A stretch of 64,000 nt of DNA from Paludisphaera borealis (GTDB taxonomy: Bacteria; Planctomycetota; Planctomycetia; Isosphaerales; Isosphaeraceae): the NCBI RefSeq assembly GCF_001956985.1, contig NZ_CP019082.1, positions 3,100,001 through 3,164,000 of the forward strand. Direction: 5' to 3'. The translations under genes were made by a program, and so were the position numbers. The notes beneath the pieces were generated by a model. It was not told the DNA's origin. It worked only from the letters and a program-made list of their open reading frames with translations, and ran no database searches. Below are positions 49,450-64,000 of this stretch, piece by piece (positions within the stretch are counted from its first letter, which is position 1; each line of letters opens with the position of its first letter).

Positions 49450-49522
49450 TGCGCCGTGGAGCAGCGGCTAGCTCGCCAGGCTCATAACCTGGAGGTCGTA
49501 GGTTCGATTCCTACCGGCGCAA
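49450..49522 (+). tRNA. tRNA-Met (CAU), copy 1
   Basis: A 73-base cloverleaf: acceptor stem TGCGCCG/CGGCGCA, anticodon stem CCAGG/CCTGG with loop CTCATAA (anticodon CAT at 49483-49485), T-stem GTAGG/CCTAC with loop TTCGATT, discriminator A. CCA is not encoded. The D-arm GTGGAGCAG...TAGCTC resembles initiator tRNA. The weak U1-A72 end pair also suits an initiator, but the stem has A29-G30-G31 rather than GGG. An identical copy lies 572 bases downstream. A conserved ACTATGGCAG precedes both. Confidence 0.93.
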
Positions 49523-50021: not shown

Positions 50022-50094
50022 TGCGCCGTGGAGCAGCGGCTAGCTCGCCAGGCTCATAACCTGGAGGTCGTAGGTTCGATTCCTACCGGCGCAA
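50022..50094 (+). tRNA. tRNA-Met (CAU), copy 2
   Basis: Identical over all 73 bases to the copy at 49450-49522, with the same anticodon CAT and the same lack of encoded CCA. About 50 bases on each side are also recognisably homologous (upstream GAGTCGGGCTTCC and TACTATGGCAG; downstream CGCAATTTT and CCACAC). The pair therefore arose by segmental duplication with the flanks since diverged. Confidence 0.93.
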
Positions 50095-50369: not shown

Positions 50370-50843
50370 ATGATGCGCATGGCTGATTCGTCTTCGCTCG
50401 TCGCCGAGACCGTGACCCATCGTCTCGTCTTGCCTCGCGACGCCAACCACCACGGCACTCTCTATGCCGGCGCGCTCCTGTCGCTCGCCCTCGAGGCCGG
50501 CTACGCCACGGCCTATCAGGCCGCCGGCCTCAATGCCAACCTGGTCCTCAAACGCGTCCTCGACCTTCGATGCTATGAGCCGGTCCCCATCGGCCGCGTC
50601 ATCCGGATCCTCGGCCGCCAGATCCATCGCGGCAGCGCCCAGATCGTGGTCGGACTCTGGGGAGCCCCCCTCGACGGCAACACCTCGCCGTGGATGGACG
50701 GCGTCATGCAATTCGTCCATGTCGATCCTCTCGGCCGCCCGGAACCGTTGACGGAAGAACCCGAAACCGAAGTCGACCCGCTCGATCCCCCCTGGACCCA
50801 ATTGCGCGAGCGGACACGCAAGCTCCTGCACATCCGCCAGTAA
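50370..50843 (+). CDS. hotdog-fold acyl-CoA thioesterase-like protein
   Basis: This protein of 157 aa (154 aa if the ATG at 50379 is used) begins HRLVLPRDANHHGTLYAGALLSLALEAGYATAY. That is the hotdog helix region with the N-x-x-G-x-L-x-A-G-x-L-L signature and a Glu in the catalytic-helix position. IGRVIRILGRQIHRGSAQIVVGLW forms the beta sheet. It probably hydrolyses an acyl-CoA in the cytoplasm; the substrate is unknown. It is followed on the same strand, after 257 bases, by the permease gene. Confidence 0.8.
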   Translation: MMRMADSSSLVAETVTHRLVLPRDANHHGTLYAGALLSLALEAGYATAYQAAGLNANLVLKRVLDLRCYEPVPIGRVIRILGRQIHRGSAQIVVGLWGAPLDGNTSPWMDGVMQFVHVDPLGRPEPLTEEPETEVDPLDPPWTQLRERTRKLLHIRQ

Positions 50844-51100
50844 TCCGGGCCTCGCATACGGCGATACGGATTGCATCGCGAGCCAGCATGCACACTGTCT
50901 TGCTTCGTCCATATCTACGCACCCATTTCTCGAACCGGGACGCGCCTCGGCTGGAATTTCGAGATTTCCTCCGACTCGCCCCCGTGACGCCTCGGCGAAG
51001 CGTCCCCTTGCGATCGGCCCTCTTGCGGAAACGGGGTCCGCGGCGGTTTAATACCCGTATACGACAACTGTCTCAGGCATCTTCCCCGTGGGACGCCGGC

Positions 51101-53002
51101 ATGCCTTTCGGACTGTTCCTCAAGCGTGAGTTGACCGTCTCGACCCGGCGCGGGACGGTGTTTTCCGATCGTCGCGCCGCCGCGAGCATGGCGGCGGAGG
51201 TGATCGGGGGGTGTTTCGCGGTCTGGTATTGGTGGGACTGGGACCGCGAATCGGTCGCTGGGGCCGCTTCGTTCGGGTTCACGATGTTCGGCGCGCTCGT
51301 CCTCGCCGAGTTGACGCTGGTGCTGGCGGTCATCCCCATGACGGCCGCTCCATCGATCGCCCTGGAGCGCGACAAGAAGAGCCTGGATTCGTTGCTGGCG
51401 ACGCGGGTGTCGGCCGCGGACGTCGTCCTGGGCGCGTTGGGCGCGACCCTGCTGCGGTACGGGAACCGCCTCCTCGCCCTGGCGCCGATCGTGGTCTTGA
51501 TCATGTTCCTCGGTGGAATCGACCCGCGTCTGGCGGCGCTCGCGTTCGCGGGCCTCGTCTCGACGGCCATCGTCACGGCGTCGCTCTCGGTGGCGATTTC
51601 GGCCGGCGCCCGCACGTCCCGGCATGCCGTCTCGTACACGGTCTCGCTGGCGATGGCCTGGATGTACCTCCCGCTCCTGGGAGTGATGGCGGTTCCCCGG
51701 CTGTGGCCGGCGGTCGCGCCGTGGATCGTTCCGGTCGCCGTCCGGATGCTCGACGGCAGCCCCGTGGGGGTGGTGATGAGTCTCGCGGGGGTAACTCCGC
51801 GCGGGCCGCTGGTCCCCTCGGTCCTGAAGATGATCGCGATCCATGCGATCGCGTCCGTGGCGCTCGTGGCCTGGGCGATCGTCCGGCTGCGTCCGGCCTC
51901 GCGGACGATTCACGACTTGGAAGGGCGGGAAGCGTTCTTCCGATCGCTGCGAGCCCGGTGGCGGCCCTGGCCGGCGTGCGGCGACGACCCGGTGCTCTGG
52001 CATGAGATGCACTCGGCCCGGGCGTCCGGCGACCCCTCGGACCTGCTCGCCCGGCTGGTGAACGTGGGCTTGATCGGAGCCCTCGCTTACGTCATGTGGC
52101 TGTTCGCCGCGCCGGCGTTCACCGAATTGTTCCAGCGGGGCTACGGCCCGGGACCGGCGGACGCGGCCTTCCCCGAACTGAACCCCTTGGCCCGGATGCT
52201 CGTCGCCAAGGCGTCGAGGTTCCCCATGATCGTCACGCCCGGCCAGGCGCGGCTGGATTTCAACATCGTCTTGAGACAGTCGACGGGGCTCCTCGGCTTT
52301 GTCTACTTGCTGATGCTTGCCGGCACGGCGGCCGAGAGCGTGACGAACGAACGCGATCGCGACACCTGGCTGGGACTGATCACCACGCCGCTGACCGGCT
52401 GGGAGATCCTCCGGGCCAAGATGCTCGGATCGATCTGGAAGACCCGCGTGATGGGGTACGTGATTCTCTCGATCTGGACGCTCGGCCTCCTGACCGGCGC
52501 GGTGCATCCGTTGGGCTTCGCCGCCGTGGTCGTCGCGTCAGGGGCGGCGGGGGGATTTGTGACGGCCCTCGGCGTGTCGATGTCGTTGTGGTCGAAAGAC
52601 CGCGCCCAGGCCTCGGGCCGGGTGATCGGGCCGCTGGTGCTGTCGTTCTGCCTGGGCGCGGTCCCGTTCCTTCTTCCTGGGCCCGTGAGCGGCGTGGCGG
52701 CGGCCGGTTCGCCGCCGTTCCAGCTCTGGTCGGCGCTGTTCTCGTACGACGACGTCCGCGACTTGCTGCACGCGCGCGGCGTGTCGCAGTTCGCCGTGGC
52801 CGGCGTCCGGAGCGCGACGGCCACCTGGCTGATGCTGGCGGCCTGGCTGATCGGCGTGACGGCCCAGGCCGTCGCCGCCGTCCTGCTGACGCGCGCCGCG
52901 GTCCGTGGATTCGACGCCGCCGTCGACCGTCCGGTTCGCAGCCGCGACGTCGTCCGCCAGGTCGAAACGGGGCCCTGTTCCCGACCCGCGATCGCCACGT
53001 AG
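51101..53002 (+). CDS. ABC-2-like transporter permease (double-length)
   Basis: The ATG at 51101 gives 633 aa starting MPFGLFLKRELTVSTRRGTVF, the usual cytoplasmic start of ABC-2 permeases. The in-frame extension back to 50690 overlaps the thioesterase gene and is Arg-rich junk. There are two halves of about six helices each. Each half contains the conserved pattern of export permeases (IALERDKKSLDSLLATRVSAADVVLGAL; TNERDRDTWLGLITTPLTGWEILRAKML), which marks an internal duplication. No ATP-binding partner is adjacent. It is probably an export or gliding-type permease; the cargo is unknown. The ECF sigma gene follows after 127 bases. Confidence 0.82.
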   Translation: MPFGLFLKRELTVSTRRGTVFSDRRAAASMAAEVIGGCFAVWYWWDWDRESVAGAASFGFTMFGALVLAELTLVLAVIPMTAAPSIALERDKKSLDSLLATRVSAADVVLGALGATLLRYGNRLLALAPIVVLIMFLGGIDPRLAALAFAGLVSTAIVTASLSVAISAGARTSRHAVSYTVSLAMAWMYLPLLGVMAVPRLWPAVAPWIVPVAVRMLDGSPVGVVMSLAGVTPRGPLVPSVLKMIAIHAIASVALVAWAIVRLRPASRTIHDLEGREAFFRSLRARWRPWPACGDDPVLWHEMHSARASGDPSDLLARLVNVGLIGALAYVMWLFAAPAFTELFQRGYGPGPADAAFPELNPLARMLVAKASRFPMIVTPGQARLDFNIVLRQSTGLLGFVYLLMLAGTAAESVTNERDRDTWLGLITTPLTGWEILRAKMLGSIWKTRVMGYVILSIWTLGLLTGAVHPLGFAAVVVASGAAGGFVTALGVSMSLWSKDRAQASGRVIGPLVLSFCLGAVPFLLPGPVSGVAAAGSPPFQLWSALFSYDDVRDLLHARGVSQFAVAGVRSATATWLMLAAWLIGVTAQAVAAVLLTRAAVRGFDAAVDRPVRSRDVVRQVETGPCSRPAIAT

Positions 53003-53049: not shown

Positions 53050-53086
53050 GAAATCGCGTATCCAACGAGGGGAATGGCCGCAGTAC
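53050..53086 (+). promoter_or_regulatory. candidate ECF-type promoter upstream of sigma gene 1
   Basis: GAAATCGCGTATCC and CCGCAGTAC are separated by 14 bases. The same two words with the same 14-base spacer occur before the paralogous sigma gene (55676-55712), although the spacer sequences differ. The block ends 44 bases before the ATG at 53130. Conserved words with a free spacer are what a promoter would leave; autoregulation by the encoded sigma factor is inference. Confidence 0.5.
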
Positions 53087-53129: not shown

Positions 53130-55331
53130 ATGACGCAGGTATCGGGCTCTCGGCAGGGCGATTACCATCAAGCGATCGAGCGGCTGTTCCACGAGGGCAC
53201 GGTCTCCGGGCTCTCCGAGGTTCAGCTTCTGGAGCGGTTCGCCGCGCGGCGCGACGAGGCGGCCTTCGAGGCGCTCGTCGAGCGGCACGGGCCGATGGTT
53301 TTGGGGGTCTGCCGCCGATTCTTGCGCGATCCCAACGACGTCGACGACGCCTTCCAAGCCGTGTTCCTGGTCCTGGTCCGGAGGGCGGGCGACATCCGCC
53401 GAAAGGACCTGCTGGGCAACTGGCTTTACGGCGTCGCCTGCCGCGTGGCGGTCCGGGCGCGTTCCATGGCGGTCCGGCGACCGGCGACGACGATCTCGGA
53501 GACCGACGGCGACCAGATCGCCGTGGACCTCCGTCGCCCGACGAGTCGTGAGGCGGACGAGAGCCGAAGCTGGCTTCACGAGGAAGTCGAGCGGCTCCCC
53601 CGCCGCTACCGACAGCCGGTCGTCGCCTGCTACTTCGAGGGCCGCACCCACGAGGAAGCGGCGACGCTCCTCGGCTGCCCGCTGGGCACGGTCAAGGGCC
53701 GGCTCTCCCGCGCCCGTGACCTGCTCCGCAAGCGGCTGGAGCGTCGCGGCCTGGCGGTCCCGGCCGTCGCCCTGGCGGCGCAGCTCGCTTCGCCCGACCT
53801 CCGCGCGGCGGTCCCCGTTCCGCTCGCATCGGCAACCGTCCGCTCCGGCCTCGCCCTGGCGACTGGTTCGGCCGTGATGACCACCTCGGCGATTTCCCTC
53901 TCCGTCCGCACGCTTACCGAAGGAGTGCTCCACGCCATGGTCGTCACCCACATCAAGGCCGTCGCCCTACCTATGATCGTCGTCGCCGCCGGCGTTCTGG
54001 CGGCCGGCGCGAGCGTCGCCGCCCGTCAGAATGCCGACGGCAAGCCGGTGCCGAAGGCGGCCGTCGCCCAGACGGCACCTGGGGCCGAAAAGCCCACGGA
54101 GAAGGCCACCGAGACGGCCCCGGAGTCAGAGGCGCTCACGGTCGCCGACCGCGACTTTACACATCGGCTCGAAGCGCAGGGCCGCGCTTACAGAGGATTA
54201 CAGGAACGACTCCAATCCGATCTGAGCGGGGTCAGGACCGACGCGGCCAAGGACAAGGCCCGAATCCTCTATCGCGCCCGCGTAGAGGCTATGATCCGGA
54301 ACATCGAGAAGGAAGAGCCTGCCTCGAAGGCCGGTCGCGATCTGAAAACGGCGTTCCTGGGGTTCTTGAACAAGGGGCTTGATACGAAGGTCGCCGAACG
54401 TGACCCGAATCGAGGCTTCGGCGCTCCTCCGGTATTCCCTGGTTTCCAAGAGATTGGCCAGAGCTACATTGTCTCGTTGAATAAGCTGCTCGGGGACCTG
54501 GCGGCTCTGCGAGCTCCCGACGAGCAGGCGATGGCGCGAGACCTCCACCGGGAGAGACTGGCCGCCCTGGCGGAGTCCACCAGCGAGCCGGGATCTCCGC
54601 AGCGGGATCTCTATCGCGCGTATCTCGCCTTCCGCCAGCAGGTCGACGACAACCCGCAAACCTTGCAATTCGTCGCCTCAGAACGGCCTCCAACCGCAAC
54701 GAAGAAGGCGAAGGCCGAGCCTCCGAAATCCGCCGCCCCGGCGAACACACAGCAGGCTGAGCAGGCCCCGGCCCCGAAGGTCGCCCAAGGCGGCGGCTTC
54801 GGGGGGGGCGGCATCGGCGGCCCGACGCCCGAAGAAATCCGCCAGGAGGTCGCCGGCCTGTCCGCCACGCTGGCCAAGTTCGACGAGAACCCGAAGAACA
54901 AGGCCATGCTTGAGGCCCTTGATCAGCCGATCACCCTGCGAACGACCGAAAAATCGACCCTTGGCGACGTGCTCAAGCAAATCAAAAACTCCGCACGCGT
55001 CGCCGACGGCAAGAAGCTCCCCGTCTACGTCGATCCGATTGGAATCGAGGAAGCCGGCGCGAGCCTCTCCTCGCCGGTCGCGATCGACCTGGAAGACGTG
55101 CCGCTCCGGTTCTCGCTCCGGCTCACGCTCAAGCAGCTCGGCCTGGCGTACTGCGTCCGCGACGGCGTGCTCATCATCAGTTCCCTCGAAGGCGTCCAGC
55201 AGGAATTGAAGGAAGCCGAGAGCGAGCTGATGAGCCTGCATCCCGATAAGGTCCTTTACGGACCGAACGGGCGACGATGGTACACCGACGGCATGGGAGT
55301 CATGGGCGGCATGGGCGGCGGAATGCGCTAA
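53130..55331 (+). CDS. ECF sigma factor fused to a transmembrane segment and STN-like domain (copy 1)
   Basis: This 733-aa protein carries sigma region 2 at residues 43-110 ([39 protein letters not shown]) and region 4 at 150-207 ([48 protein letters not shown]). A long Ala/Val-rich linker (208-270) leads to a likely transmembrane helix at 277-297 ([21 protein letters not shown]). A roughly 300-residue low-complexity and helical part and a C-terminal STN-like domain follow (about 595-690: [21 protein letters not shown]...[17 protein letters not shown]). It resembles planctomycete extended ECF factors in which an outer domain may control sigma release. It ends in a Gly/Met-rich tail. Confidence 0.87.
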
Positions 55332-55345
55332 AGGCTGTCCTCGAA

Positions 55346-55456
55346 ATTCACCACGGAGGAGTCGGAGAATACGGAGGGGGAACGACTCAATGGATCGACC
55401 TTCCCGAATCCTTCTGCATTCCTCTCCACTTCCGCTCCGTATCCTCCGTGGTGAAT
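55346..55456. repeat. inverted repeat between the two sigma genes
   Basis: The left arm 55346-55376 (starts ATTCACCACGGAGGA) and right arm 55435-55456 (ends TCCTCCGTGGTGAAT) match over the outer 15 bases and partly inside. The loop is about 58 bases. It looks like a REP-type element. The rest of 55332-55675 has no gene. Confidence 0.6.
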
Positions 55457-55675
55457 ACCTGATTTTCTTCGCCCCCACGTTTCGACTCCACACTTCGAGC
55501 TGGACGTTGTTCGTGAGCAGCCCCTAAGCCCGTGCCTGTCGCCGCCGGCATCCGGATTCCTCGCTCCGTTCCTCCACGCTCGCCGAGGCGGATCTCGGTA
55601 CTGTCCTCGATGCTCGGTCGCTCCGTAAACTGAACGGGACGGCCACGGGCGCGGCCGCTTTTTTGGGAAATTCGA

Positions 55676-55712
55676 GAAATCGCGTATCCCAGGCCGGCGA
55701 CGACCGCAGTAC
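55676..55712 (+). promoter_or_regulatory. candidate ECF-type promoter upstream of sigma gene 2
   Basis: GAAATCGCGTATCC, a 14-base spacer, and CCGCAGTAC, as before sigma gene 1. It ends 42 bases before the ATG at 55754. An upstream ACTGAACGGGACGG is also shared by both (about 53003 and 55629). Confidence 0.5.
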
Positions 55713-55753
55713 AGGGCGGTCATCAACGAGGCGGACGGAGGAGTCGAGTCGCC

Positions 55754-57784
55754 ATGACGCAGGTAGCGGGTTCGCGACAGGGCGATTACCACCAGGCGAT
55801 CGAACGGCTGTTCAACGAAGGCTCGGTCTCCGGGCTCTCCGAAGTTCAGCTCCTGGAGCGGTTCGCCGCGCGCCACGACGAGGCGGCCTTCGCGGCGCTC
55901 GTCGAGCGGCACGGGCCGATGGTCCTGGGGGTCTGCCGCCGGTTCTTGCACGATCCCAACGACGTCGACGACGCGTTCCAGGCGGTGTTCCTCGTGCTCG
56001 TCCGCAAGGCGGGGGGACTTCGTCAGAAGGATTTGCTGGGCAACTGGCTCTATGGCGTCGCCTGCCGCGTGGCGGTCCGGGCGCGCTCGACGGTCGCTCA
56101 ACGGCGGGCGAAAGCCGGGCCGACGGGCGATGCGGAGCGGCTGGCGGTCGATCGTCGTCGGCCGCTGGACGAGGAGCCGTGGGAGACGCTCAGCCGCGAC
56201 GAGGGGCGAAGCTGGCTTCACGAGGAAGTCGAGCGGCTCCCCCGCCGCTACCGACAGCCGGTCGTCGCCTGCTACTTCGAGGGCCGCACCCACGAGGAAG
56301 CGGCGACCCTCCTCAACTGCCCGCTGGGGACGGTCAAGGGTCGGCTCTCCCGCGCCCGCGACCTGCTCCGCAAGCGGCTGGAACGTCGCGGCCTGGCGGT
56401 CCCGGCCGTCGCCCTCACGGCGCAGCTCGCTTCGCCCGACCTCCCTGCGTCGGTCCCCGTCCCTCTCGCTTCGGCAACCGTCCGCTCGGGCCTCGCCCTG
56501 GCGACGGCGGGCACCTCGCTGATGACCACCTCGGCGATTTCCACATCCGTCCGCGCCCTTACCCAAGGAGTGCTCCACGCCATGGTCGTCACCCACGTCA
56601 AGGCCGTCGCCCTACCCATGACCCTCGTCGCCGCCGGCGTCCTCGCCGCCGGCGCGGGCGTCGTCGCCCGTCAAAACCCCGACGGCCAGCCGGAAGCCAA
56701 GCAAGCGGCGCCCGCTCAGCCAGAAGCGGCGAAATCGAAGGCAACAGTCAAACCGAGCGACCCGACGGCCACAGCCTCCCAACCGGCAAGCAAGTTCTCC
56801 GCAACTTTCCAATTCCTCTCGAGTATCGAGGGAATGCACGGGCGCTCGACGGAACTTTTCCATCATGACCTTGCGAACGCCAAGACCGACGCCGACCGGA
56901 TCAGCGCCCACCTAAGACATCGCGTGCGCGTCGCGACACTCATCGACGTGATTTATGGTGAGGAGCATAAGGACGAGGCTTCGCTGAACCTCAAGTCCAT
57001 TTTCGTCAAGCAATTGAGAAAGGATCACGGGCTTTCGGAGGAGGAAGCCCCAATCGAAAAGGAGGCCGCGAAGAAGGCCCTGGCGGAGATGGCGGGCACC
57101 GTGGGGACTGGCGTGGAGAGGCCTTCGGACAAGCCGGAGTCGACCGTCGCGAAAGCAGCCGCGACGATGGCCCCGGCGCCAATGGTGGGCGCCGGCGGAG
57201 GTGGGTTAGGGGTCGGCGACGACGGCGGAGGCGGGTTTGGGGGAGGAGGCGGCGCGACCGACGAGCCGTCGGCCGAGTCATACCGCCTCCAGATCGCCCG
57301 CGTCTCCGCGGCGCTGTCCACGCTCGATAAGAGCCCGATGAACCAGGCCGTGCTCAAGGCGCTCGAAAACCCGATCACGCTGCGGTCGACCGAGAAGACG
57401 ACGCTCGGACAGATGCTCAAGCAGATCAAGGACTCGGTGAAGACCGCCGACGGCAAGAAGATCCCGATCTACGTCGACCCGGTCGCGCTTGAGGAGGAGG
57501 AGAAGACGCTCGAAGTCCCGGTCGTCATCGACCTGGAAGACGTGCCGCTCAAGTTCTCGCTCCGGCTCATGCTCAAACAGCTCGGCCTGGCGTACTGCAT
57601 TCGCGACGGCGTGCTCATCATCAGCTCGCTCGAAGGCGTCCAGCAGGAATTGATGGAAGCCCAGAGCGAACAGATGGGCCTGAACCCCAAAGCGTTCCCG
57701 ATGATGGGCGGCGGCATGGGAGGCATGGGAGGCGGTTCCGGCGGTATGGGAGGAGGCATGGGCGGCGGCCAGGGGATGATGTGA
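55754..57784 (+). CDS. ECF sigma factor fused to a transmembrane segment and STN-like domain (copy 2)
   Basis: This 676-aa paralogue of the preceding sigma gene is near-identical in the first 110 residues ([20 protein letters not shown]...), in region 4 and in the STN-like C-terminal domain (NPITLRSTEKTTLGQMLKQIKD...[17 protein letters not shown]). The transmembrane helix is [21 protein letters not shown]. The middle part (about 320-530) is unrelated in detail, so the two may sense different signals. A Gly-rich loop ([22 protein letters not shown]) precedes the STN domain and a Gly/Met tail ends the protein. Tandem duplication is evident, including upstream regions. It converges on the TPR gene. 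Confidence 0.87.
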   Translation: MTQVAGSRQGDYHQAIERLFNEGSVSGLSEVQLLERFAARHDEAAFAALVERHGPMVLGVCRRFLHDPNDVDDAFQAVFLVLVRKAGGLRQKDLLGNWLYGVACRVAVRARSTVAQRRAKAGPTGDAERLAVDRRRPLDEEPWETLSRDEGRSWLHEEVERLPRRYRQPVVACYFEGRTHEEAATLLNCPLGTVKGRLSRARDLLRKRLERRGLAVPAVALTAQLASPDLPASVPVPLASATVRSGLALATAGTSLMTTSAISTSVRALTQGVLHAMVVTHVKAVALPMTLVAAGVLAAGAGVVARQNPDGQPEAKQAAPAQPEAAKSKATVKPSDPTATASQPASKFSATFQFLSSIEGMHGRSTELFHHDLANAKTDADRISAHLRHRVRVATLIDVIYGEEHKDEASLNLKSIFVKQLRKDHGLSEEEAPIEKEAAKKALAEMAGTVGTGVERPSDKPESTVAKAAATMAPAPMVGAGGGGLGVGDDGGGGFGGGGGATDEPSAESYRLQIARVSAALSTLDKSPMNQAVLKALENPITLRSTEKTTLGQMLKQIKDSVKTADGKKIPIYVDPVALEEEEKTLEVPVVIDLEDVPLKFSLRLMLKQLGLAYCIRDGVLIISSLEGVQQELMEAQSEQMGLNPKAFPMMGGGMGGMGGGSGGMGGGMGGGQGMM

Positions 57785-62868: not shown

Positions 62869-64000
62869 ATGACGGAAATTCTGGCCCCGCGAGAGAATTC
62901 CGAGCCGTGGGACGTGTTCGTCCTGGCGACGTGCGCCCGACTCGGCCCGTTCAGCCAGGTCCACCTGGCGCCGAAGCTGACCAGCGCCTCGCTCGGCGTG
63001 GCGGTCCACGCCAACCTGCCGTTGGAGCCCGGCGAGCTTCTGGTCGCGGCCGTCGACAACGTCCTGGACGGGCTCTCCTGCCCGATCCTCCTGACCACCC
63101 GCCGGGTGTTCTGGTTCTCGGTGACGGACCCGAAGGCAGACGGCGACCGGCGCAAGGCGATCCATTGCGAAGGGATCGACTACCGCCAGATGGGCTCGCC
63201 GATCGAGGCGCGGTCGACGGCCGGCGGCACCGGACTGGTCGTGGCCGATGGTCGGACGATCGCCTTGCCGGACGGCCAGCCCGCGCTGGCGGCGGCCATG
63301 GCGGACGCGATCCAGACCCTCTCCGTCGCGGCCCGGACCGGGGTCGCCCCGTCGATCGAGAAGCTCGACCCCGAACTGGCGAGGCGGATCGCCGGAGTGC
63401 TGCCCAAGGTCGTCGAAGCCAACAGCCGGCTGCGGATCTACGGCGGCGACTTGCAGACGTTCCGGCGCGATTTGATGACCGCGACGCCCAAGGCGTTCGT
63501 CACGCCGACGCTGATCGCCTCGTGCGTGGCCGTCTTCGTGGCGATGGTCGCCAGCGGAATCAGCCCGATGACGCCGACTTCGGGCGAGCTTCTCAAATGG
63601 GGGGCGAACGACGCCGCGCCCGTCGTCCTGGGCCACGAGTACTGGCGGCTGGCGGCGAGCGTGTTCCTGCACGGCGGCTTGCTCCACCTGGCGGTCAATA
63701 TGTGGTGCCTGGCGAACATCGGCCCGCTCGTCGAGCGGCTTTACGGGAACCTTGGCTACGCGGTCGTCTACCTCGCTTCGGGCGTCGGCGGGGCGATCGC
63801 GAGCATGGCGACGCCCCCGAGCCGCGCCAGCGTGGGGGCGTCGGGAGCGATCTTCGGCGTCATCGGGGCGCTCCTGGCTTTCCTCCTGCTTCGGCGACGG
63901 TCGGTCCCCAGCTCGGTGCTCGCTCCTTTGCGTTCGAGCGCCGTGAGCTTCGTCGTCTTCAACACCCTGTTCGGGGCGGTGGTCCCCATGATCGATCAGT
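62869..64000 (+). CDS. rhomboid-family intramembrane serine protease, 3' partial
   Basis: The ATG at 62869 follows GGAAAGG and is open to the window end (377 codons). The first 200 residues form a soluble cytoplasmic region (MTEILAPRENSEPWDVFVLATCARLG...), without a motif I recognise. From about 225 it is a rhomboid: EYWRLAASVFLHGGLLHLAVNMWCLANIGPLVERLYGN (His in the oxyanion region) and ASVGASGAIFGVIGALLAFLL with the catalytic Ser in G-x-S-G. The second catalytic His lies beyond the window. The gene is divergent from mlaE. Confidence 0.88.
   Translation, partial: MTEILAPRENSEPWDVFVLATCARLGPFSQVHLAPKLTSASLGVAVHANLPLEPGELLVAAVDNVLDGLSCPILLTTRRVFWFSVTDPKADGDRRKAIHCEGIDYRQMGSPIEARSTAGGTGLVVADGRTIALPDGQPALAAAMADAIQTLSVAARTGVAPSIEKLDPELARRIAGVLPKVVEANSRLRIYGGDLQTFRRDLMTATPKAFVTPTLIASCVAVFVAMVASGISPMTPTSGELLKWGANDAAPVVLGHEYWRLAASVFLHGGLLHLAVNMWCLANIGPLVERLYGNLGYAVVYLASGVGGAIASMATPPSRASVGASGAIFGVIGALLAFLLLRRRSVPSSVLAPLRSSAVSFVVFNTLFGAVVPMIDQ

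Follow-up and report, generated by a model that had tools for sequence, protein, structure and literature searches.

The window analysed here is a 64,000-nt stretch of the Paludisphaera borealis genome (NZ_CP019082.1, positions 3,100,001-3,164,000 of the forward strand; genome 7.65 Mb, 99.93% complete), and it contains two tandem genes, here called A and B, that each encode an extracytoplasmic function (ECF) sigma factor extended by a transmembrane (TM) helix, a helical middle part and a C-terminal domain predicted to have the STN fold. By a slight balance of probability, the two products are membrane-tethered ECF sigma factors that combine sensor and sigma factor in one polypeptide, in which contact made by the STN domain controls the sigma part and the sigma part drives its own promoter. 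Gene A (53130..55331 of the window, 733 aa) is delimited by its open reading frame (ORF), Pfam matches and an AlphaFold2 (AF2) model, and gene B (55754..57784, 676 aa) by its ORF and Pfam; these and all features located below lie on the forward strand. Both Sigma70_r2 and Sigma70_r4 score above the Pfam cut-offs in A and in B. In A, sigma region 2 covers about residues 43-116 (53256..53477; Pfam 49-111) and is helical in the AF2 model, and sigma region 4 covers about residues 148-206 (53571..53747; Pfam 148-197 and 154-201); sigma region 4 of B lies at about residues 154-212 (56213..56389; Pfam 154-203 and 160-207). The predicted TM helices are at residues 278-296 of A (53961..54017; Kyte-Doolittle 2.24) and 287-305 of B (56612..56668; Kyte-Doolittle 1.97), the former being modelled as a helix at a pLDDT (predicted local distance difference test) score below 50. 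An initial annotation had named both reading frames and the two sigma regions, all of which were recovered, and had placed a single TM helix at residues 277-297, the absence of which would have spoken against it; the best hydrophobic window of A falls at 278-296. The layout thus bears out the idea of a tethered sigma factor made as one polypeptide.

The two proteins align with 68% identity over A residues 1-415 and 65% over A 565-705. Resolved by part, identity is 88% in sigma region 2, 98% in sigma region 4, 82% in the TM helix, 66% in the STN domain and 35% in the middle. The earlier description of the sigma, TM and STN parts as nearly the same therefore holds for the first two and is too strong for the STN domain. 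That the middle part differs is correct at 35% identity, although not in the sense of two unrelated sensors. A helical unit of about 75 residues occurs twice in A (unit 1, residues 339-420, 54144..54389; unit 2, residues 434-509, 54429..54656) and once in B (residues 347-428, 56792..57037), and from zero to at least three times in relatives; all three were placed by a hidden Markov model (HMM) of the unit and by similarity, the two A units to each other and the B unit to A unit 1. Unit 1 of A resembles unit 2 (z 9.2), the middle of B (z 10.2) and the middle of the relative from G001 (z 7.7), with none of 200 shuffles reaching these scores in each case. The A units show no significant similarity to the middles from G004 and G005 (z 1.6-2.9), and the G001 middle links to both of these (z 8.0 and 10.5, for whole middles with linkers included). 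An iterated unit HMM, whose E-values are inflated because the members form part of the model, finds two units in A, one in B, one in G001, two in G005, one each in L082 and L102, and in G004 three clear units plus weak partial matches; it finds no clear unit in G002, G003 or G009. Unrelated middle domains in A and B are rejected in view of the similarity between A unit 1 and the B middle and of the shared unit HMM, and the divergence of the middle parts is better explained by the number and divergence of one helical unit. The full-length AF2 model of A (mean pLDDT 69; predicted template modelling score, pTM, 0.33) likewise has two helical bundles between the TM helix and the STN domain.

For the C-terminal domain, single-sequence Pfam searches give no match to STN (PF07660; gathering cut-off 28.4 bits) in A or B at E<=1, and four homologs from the same genome score 12.9-19.2 bits. 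At E<=1, PF07660 picks up 41 of 53 homologous domains (best 7.1e-6), and FecR_C weakly picks up 15 of them (best 0.0075). Profile searches against PDB sequences gave only weak matches, led by PilQ (E 0.019 with 14 sequences, 0.082 with 53), and both lists included a ferric-pseudobactin receptor domain alongside unrelated proteins. The AF2 model of A residues 558-710 has a mean pLDDT of 90, a pTM of 0.84 and the strand and helix order of STN domains. With this model, Foldseek placed the PilQ N0 domain first (E 0.01), with no match at or below E 0.001. VIA-align ranked 4m0h_A, a FecR-like putative anti-sigma factor, first (Z 9.2; 1.8 A for 73 residues), followed by EscC (8.8), XcpQ (8.3) and chain B of the PupR:PupB complex (7.6). 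In this ranking rows within 1 Z count as tied, phage baseplate chains reach 8.1, and models that lack a clear match often have a best Z of 7-8. Taken together, the model and its structural neighbours indicate that the C-terminal domain of A and B is an STN fold, predicted at residues 600-685 of A (54927..55184; pLDDT 90) and, by the alignment over A 565-705, at about residues 540-625 of B (57371..57628); its nearest folds are the FecR-like anti-sigma C-terminus and secretin N0 domains. The STN-like fold of the initial annotation thus stands, and the fold unrelated to STN that would have counted against it was not obtained. Homology with secretin N-domains is further supported by L076, a protein of the same genome in which an STN domain precedes a secretin domain located in the neighbouring frame. 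This secretin gene (L076/L168, G000:C1:6492535-6497159) seems to switch frame within a Gly/Ser-rich repeat, the STN ORF continuing into Arg-rich sequence and the secretin domain occupying a separate 371-aa frame, through either a sequencing error or a real frameshift. Elsewhere, the ECF sigma factors L106 and L113 carry three STN-like copies per ectodomain.

For most of the numerous ECF genes of planctomycetes, neither input nor target is known. A family of 35 related ECF sigma genes (A, B and 33 others) was collected from the P. borealis genome, in all of which both sigma regions match at E<=0.01; a hydrophobic segment (Kyte-Doolittle >=1.5, residues 200-345) is present in 32 of the 35, and an STN-like domain in four (A, B, L050 and L073). 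When 30 of the 33 other paralogs (all but L045, L050 and L073) were scanned singly, 14 had a recognisable domain after the sigma part at E<=1e-4: CarboxypepD_reg in five, SBP_bac_10 in three, thioredoxin/redoxin in three (one with CarboxypepD_reg as well), and di-haem oxidoreductase (DHOR), trypsin (Trypsin_2), HlyD and SLBB/Poly_export in one each. Most of these domain types are normally extracytoplasmic, which supports a topology with the C-terminus outside. One sigma-TM chassis thus appears joined to many different, mostly extracytoplasmic modules within a single genome. Individual fusions include L046 with the di-haem oxidoreductase, L060 with the trypsin-like protease, L055 with AhpC/redoxin and several hydrophobic segments, L058 with HlyD and L037 with SLBB/Poly_export, while L047 is a short ECF protein ending in a haem-type CxxCH motif (CVQCH). 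Two cysteines, C61 in sigma region 2 and C167 in sigma region 4, are nearly invariant over the 35 paralogs.

A scan with two peptide patterns returned 52 loci, every one with a planctomycete title; 20 are sigma-STN fusions, one of them (L108) cut at a contig end, and no sigma match was found at the remaining 32. Among viral contigs the patterns matched 13 times, with no relative recovered. A sigma tree of 57 rows includes 26 with STN. It recovers two supported clades of ECF-STN genes, one with 13 rows and one with 11, leaves L111 unresolved and places L073 elsewhere; the STN label has to change twice on this tree. A literature search found no work joining a sigma factor, an STN domain and planctomycetes, although it did not take in the main planctomycete ECF surveys and a prior description is possible.

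The sigma trees join A and B as sisters (support 96/91 and 99/90), whereas in the weakly resolved STN tree they are not sisters, with weak support. At the syntenic place, the five other Paludisphaera genomes carry a single ECF-STN ORF each. The simplest reading is therefore a duplication within this lineage, and the pair looks lineage-specific, with loss elsewhere as the alternative. Synonymous differences per synonymous site (pS) between A and B are 0.10 in sigma region 4, 0.21 and 0.18 in the next two segments, 0.37 in sigma region 2 and 0.35 in the STN domain. Codon constraint is ruled out as the cause of the low sigma region 4 value by the other 27 pairs of the same eight sequences, which range from 0.28 to 0.59 there; one pair has 0.21 in the segment after sigma region 4. 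Together with low synonymous windows at 16-75 and 646-705, for which no window-wise comparison with other pairs is available, the low pS suggests gene conversion between A and B. It may be argued that the tandem is simply a redundant duplication, its copies without specialisation and heading for loss. That the five other genomes yield a single match each at E<=1e-100 (27 of 93-126 candidates scored per genome) is in keeping with this, as is a sigma region 4 seemingly kept alike by conversion, but both frames are open, the ratio of nonsynonymous to synonymous change (dN/dS) is low in the sigma regions (0.12 in region 2 and 0.14 in region 4; 0.46 in the STN domain) and both upstream elements described below are exact, so that redundancy appears somewhat unlikely. 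A second tandem pair of ECF paralogs, L061 and L051 (G000:C1:6273074 and 6275428), are also sisters in the sigma tree and have no STN match.

Upstream of both genes lies the same two-box promoter-like element, CGTATCC-N16-GCAGTAC, at 53057..53086 for A and 55683..55712 for B. This element is new to the present analysis, while the protein layout is itself a variation on the extended ECF factors of planctomycetes. Both copies are exact matches and are kept upstream of orthologs, the spacer having diverged; in an upstream alignment of eight genes both boxes are exact in six (one with N15), with changes in G003 and G004. The exact element occurs in the P. borealis genome upstream of A and B only, and when up to two mismatches are allowed there is no excess over a reversed control (41 against 63). 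One site with a single mismatch, at C1:835498, was not recovered by a partial-string search of its locus on the forward strand. In a loosened form, YGTATCS-N16-GCAK, the element is found upstream of 13 of 17 ECF-STN genes outside the Paludisphaera A/B orthologs (the 20 fusions minus the orthologs L078 and L079 and the cut L108), compared with 51 of 5000 random windows from the same loci. Among these 17 genes it occurs with a spacer of 16 and with no other from 10 to 23. Excluding L080, which helped to define the boxes, leaves 12 of 16, and the test genes include the near-copy pairs L089/L120, L097/L099 and L098/L117. Because the loosened pattern was drawn from scores that included the test genes, this is not a blind test; the original boxes score at least 11 of 14 in 9 of the 17 genes and in 8 of 600 random windows. 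In six Paludisphaera genomes, the strict form YGTATCS-N16-GCAKNAY has 13 matches (reversed control 3), nine of which are upstream of ECF-STN genes. Four of these genes are A/B orthologs; the other five are L050 and orthologs of it, the STN domain of the latter having been checked. No ECF gene follows the remaining four matches (C1:2568118, C3:24193, G003 C143 and G005 C45).

The simplest reading of this distribution is that these sigma factors themselves recognise the element as their -35/-10 pair, and its concentration upstream of ECF-STN genes suggests autoregulation. Alternatively, the boxes may be bound by another regulator, either a different ECF sigma factor or a repressor. Such a regulator could be sought among the many further ECF genes of the genome, and the boxes do not look like classical ECF boxes, but the element occurs in each of the two ECF-STN sigma clades and is missing at L073, the STN paralog whose sigma part falls elsewhere in the tree, and a spacer fixed at 16 is what a -35/-10 pair would be expected to show. 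Control by another regulator is accordingly unlikely.

On the basis of the computed anatomy, fold, family context, element conservation and sister relation of the sigma parts, the following mechanism may be proposed. Sigma regions 2 and 4 would reside on the cytoplasmic side, one helix would cross the membrane, and on the far side the STN domain would be carried by a helical spacer whose length varies. There the STN domain would dock on an envelope partner of the STN/N0-domain type, perhaps a secretin or an exported STN protein, and this contact would hold or free the sigma part through either a conformational change or cleavage in or near the membrane; control need not involve proteolysis. 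The active sigma factor would then start transcription at CGTATCC-N16-GCAGTAC, a promoter dedicated to its own gene, producing positive feedback. Since sigma region 4 is near-identical and the promoter boxes are identical, the pair would channel two ectodomains with different spacing to a single promoter specificity. A broader version of this proposal, which is doubtful as a whole, is a one-protein form of cell-surface signalling that dispenses with TonB receptors: the sigma factor would be the receptor, its STN domain would dock on envelope STN/N0 domains such as those of secretins, the spacer would set its reach, and a private promoter for each copy would make a self-sustaining switch, the tandem providing two inputs, with spacers of different length, for one output.

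Several known systems bear comparison. IutY of Pseudomonas putida (ECF243) is named in PMC8999054 as the only ECF factor whose proteolytic activation has been characterised; it is a sigma/anti-sigma fusion cut by Prc and RseP (PMC5411451). IutY resembles A and B in having an ECF sigma factor and a periplasmic domain in one membrane polypeptide (PMC5411451, PMC8999054). It differs in possessing an anti-sigma part and an outer-membrane receptor, whereas FecR matches are absent from A and B, and TonB receptor matches from the genome. PupR and the FecR-family regulators share a single TM helix and a C-terminal STN subdomain (PMC7186176), the position of STN at the extreme C-terminus of PupR having been a new arrangement at the time; the FecR-like 4m0h is also the top structural neighbour of the A domain, tied with secretins. 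These regulators are separate from the sigma factor and have an all-beta juxta-membrane subdomain, whereas the A spacer is modelled as helical. ECF57 and its relatives resemble A and B in their long C-terminal extension, and C61/C167 may correspond to the cysteine pair described for ECF57 (PMC8999054); WD40-like repeats occur in some ECF57 members, whereas A and B have a TM helix and an STN domain and no WD40 match (Pfam, E<=1). In the actinobacterial ECF48, ECF52 and ECF53 the sigma factor is fused to a membrane part and proteolytic activation is expected (PMC8999054), with a zinc-finger anti-sigma domain for which Pfam finds no match in A or B. Among Tuwongella ECF factors, two were confined to the Triton X-100 fraction, and another three were detected a single time, either there or in the SDS fraction (PMC8567305). 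The likeness to extended planctomycete ECF factors asserted in the initial annotation is supported by the long C-terminal extension. A and B may work like FecR/IutY cell-surface signalling, but they do not belong to it.

A TonB receptor, one of the two contacts first envisaged for the STN domain, is not supported as the partner, given the absence of any PF00593 (TonB_dep_Rec) match in the P. borealis genome, which makes TonB-type cell-surface signalling unlikely; 3 of 14 control genomes do have matches. Secretins, the other contact, have three matches in the genome. For the release step, M50 proteases give nine match rows, corresponding to about six genes. The rhomboid protease reported nearby at 62869 was not found; the frame there encodes MlaE (E 2.4e-58), and a second ORF at that place has no Pfam match.

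A number of observations weigh against a membrane-tethered sigma factor controlled through its STN domain. No FecR-family match occurs in A or B (Pfam, E<=1), and the means by which the sigma part would be held off is thus not explained. M50 matches are present in all 14 control genomes and so give release by cleavage weak support. Counts of Lys and Arg flanking the TM helix give no topology, at 80 against 80 in the 35 paralogs and 46 against 54 in the 22 ECF-STN proteins (the 20 fusions, A and B), and 16 of the 30 singly scanned paralogs have no recognisable extension domain. Among 15 neighbour families listed, none is shared between the two ECF-STN clades or stands out as a receptor. The loose element is absent upstream of L083, L101, L111 and L113, and an AAC core, usual in ECF -35 boxes, is missing from it. 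Finally, a de novo motif search upstream of the 35 paralogs did not find the two-box element as a common promoter and returned instead an AT-rich pattern (score 98.95, compared with 65.8-82.1 in ten shuffled sets, from 60 starts against 30).

Two further readings of the ectodomain compete with STN control. The sigma factor may be permanently tethered and active, with the STN domain and spacer merely anchoring it to an envelope structure, thus giving position without signal. In favour of this, the nearest folds include the N0 domains of secretins, which serve as assembly modules, and the number of spacer units varies down to zero; the enzyme and redox domains of the paralogs, however, look more like sensors than anchors and the conserved private promoter suggests a regulated output, which leaves pure anchoring distinctly unlikely. 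Direct sensing of a small molecule or metal by the ectodomain, with no protein partner and with metal bound by a Met/Gly-rich tail (GGMGGGM; at least three Met and five Gly in the last 30 residues), is improbable, for although the tail is present in 9 of the 22 aligned ECF-STN proteins, including A and B, and redox domains occur in paralogs, the tail is missing from the other 13 and the PupR STN domain works within a protein complex (PMC7186176). Met/Gly-rich tails were also seen on the STN proteins L074 and L075.

If the tethered-sigma proposal is followed, one planctomycete ECF subgroup gains both a testable promoter and a testable ectodomain, because the candidate promoter YGTATCS-N16-GCAK and the STN ectodomain make the output and the input of a tethered sigma factor directly assayable.

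The surroundings of the genes are conserved in part. Clade I loci have a hotdog-type gene upstream in six cases and an FHA-GAF-histidine kinase downstream in six, and the order hotdog-ECF-TPR is kept in Paludisphaera. In the window, an ABC-2 permease ORF (50690-53002) lies between the hotdog gene and A; searching the related loci L067-L072 for it gave nothing at E<=1e-20. Close to clade II ECF-STN genes (L097-L102 and L050) is an ORF that looks, by eye, like Mfd, the transcription-repair coupling factor. Upstream of the hotdog gene, two tRNA-Met (CAT) genes are found on the same strand at 49450-49522 and 50022-50094 of the window, about 500 bases apart.

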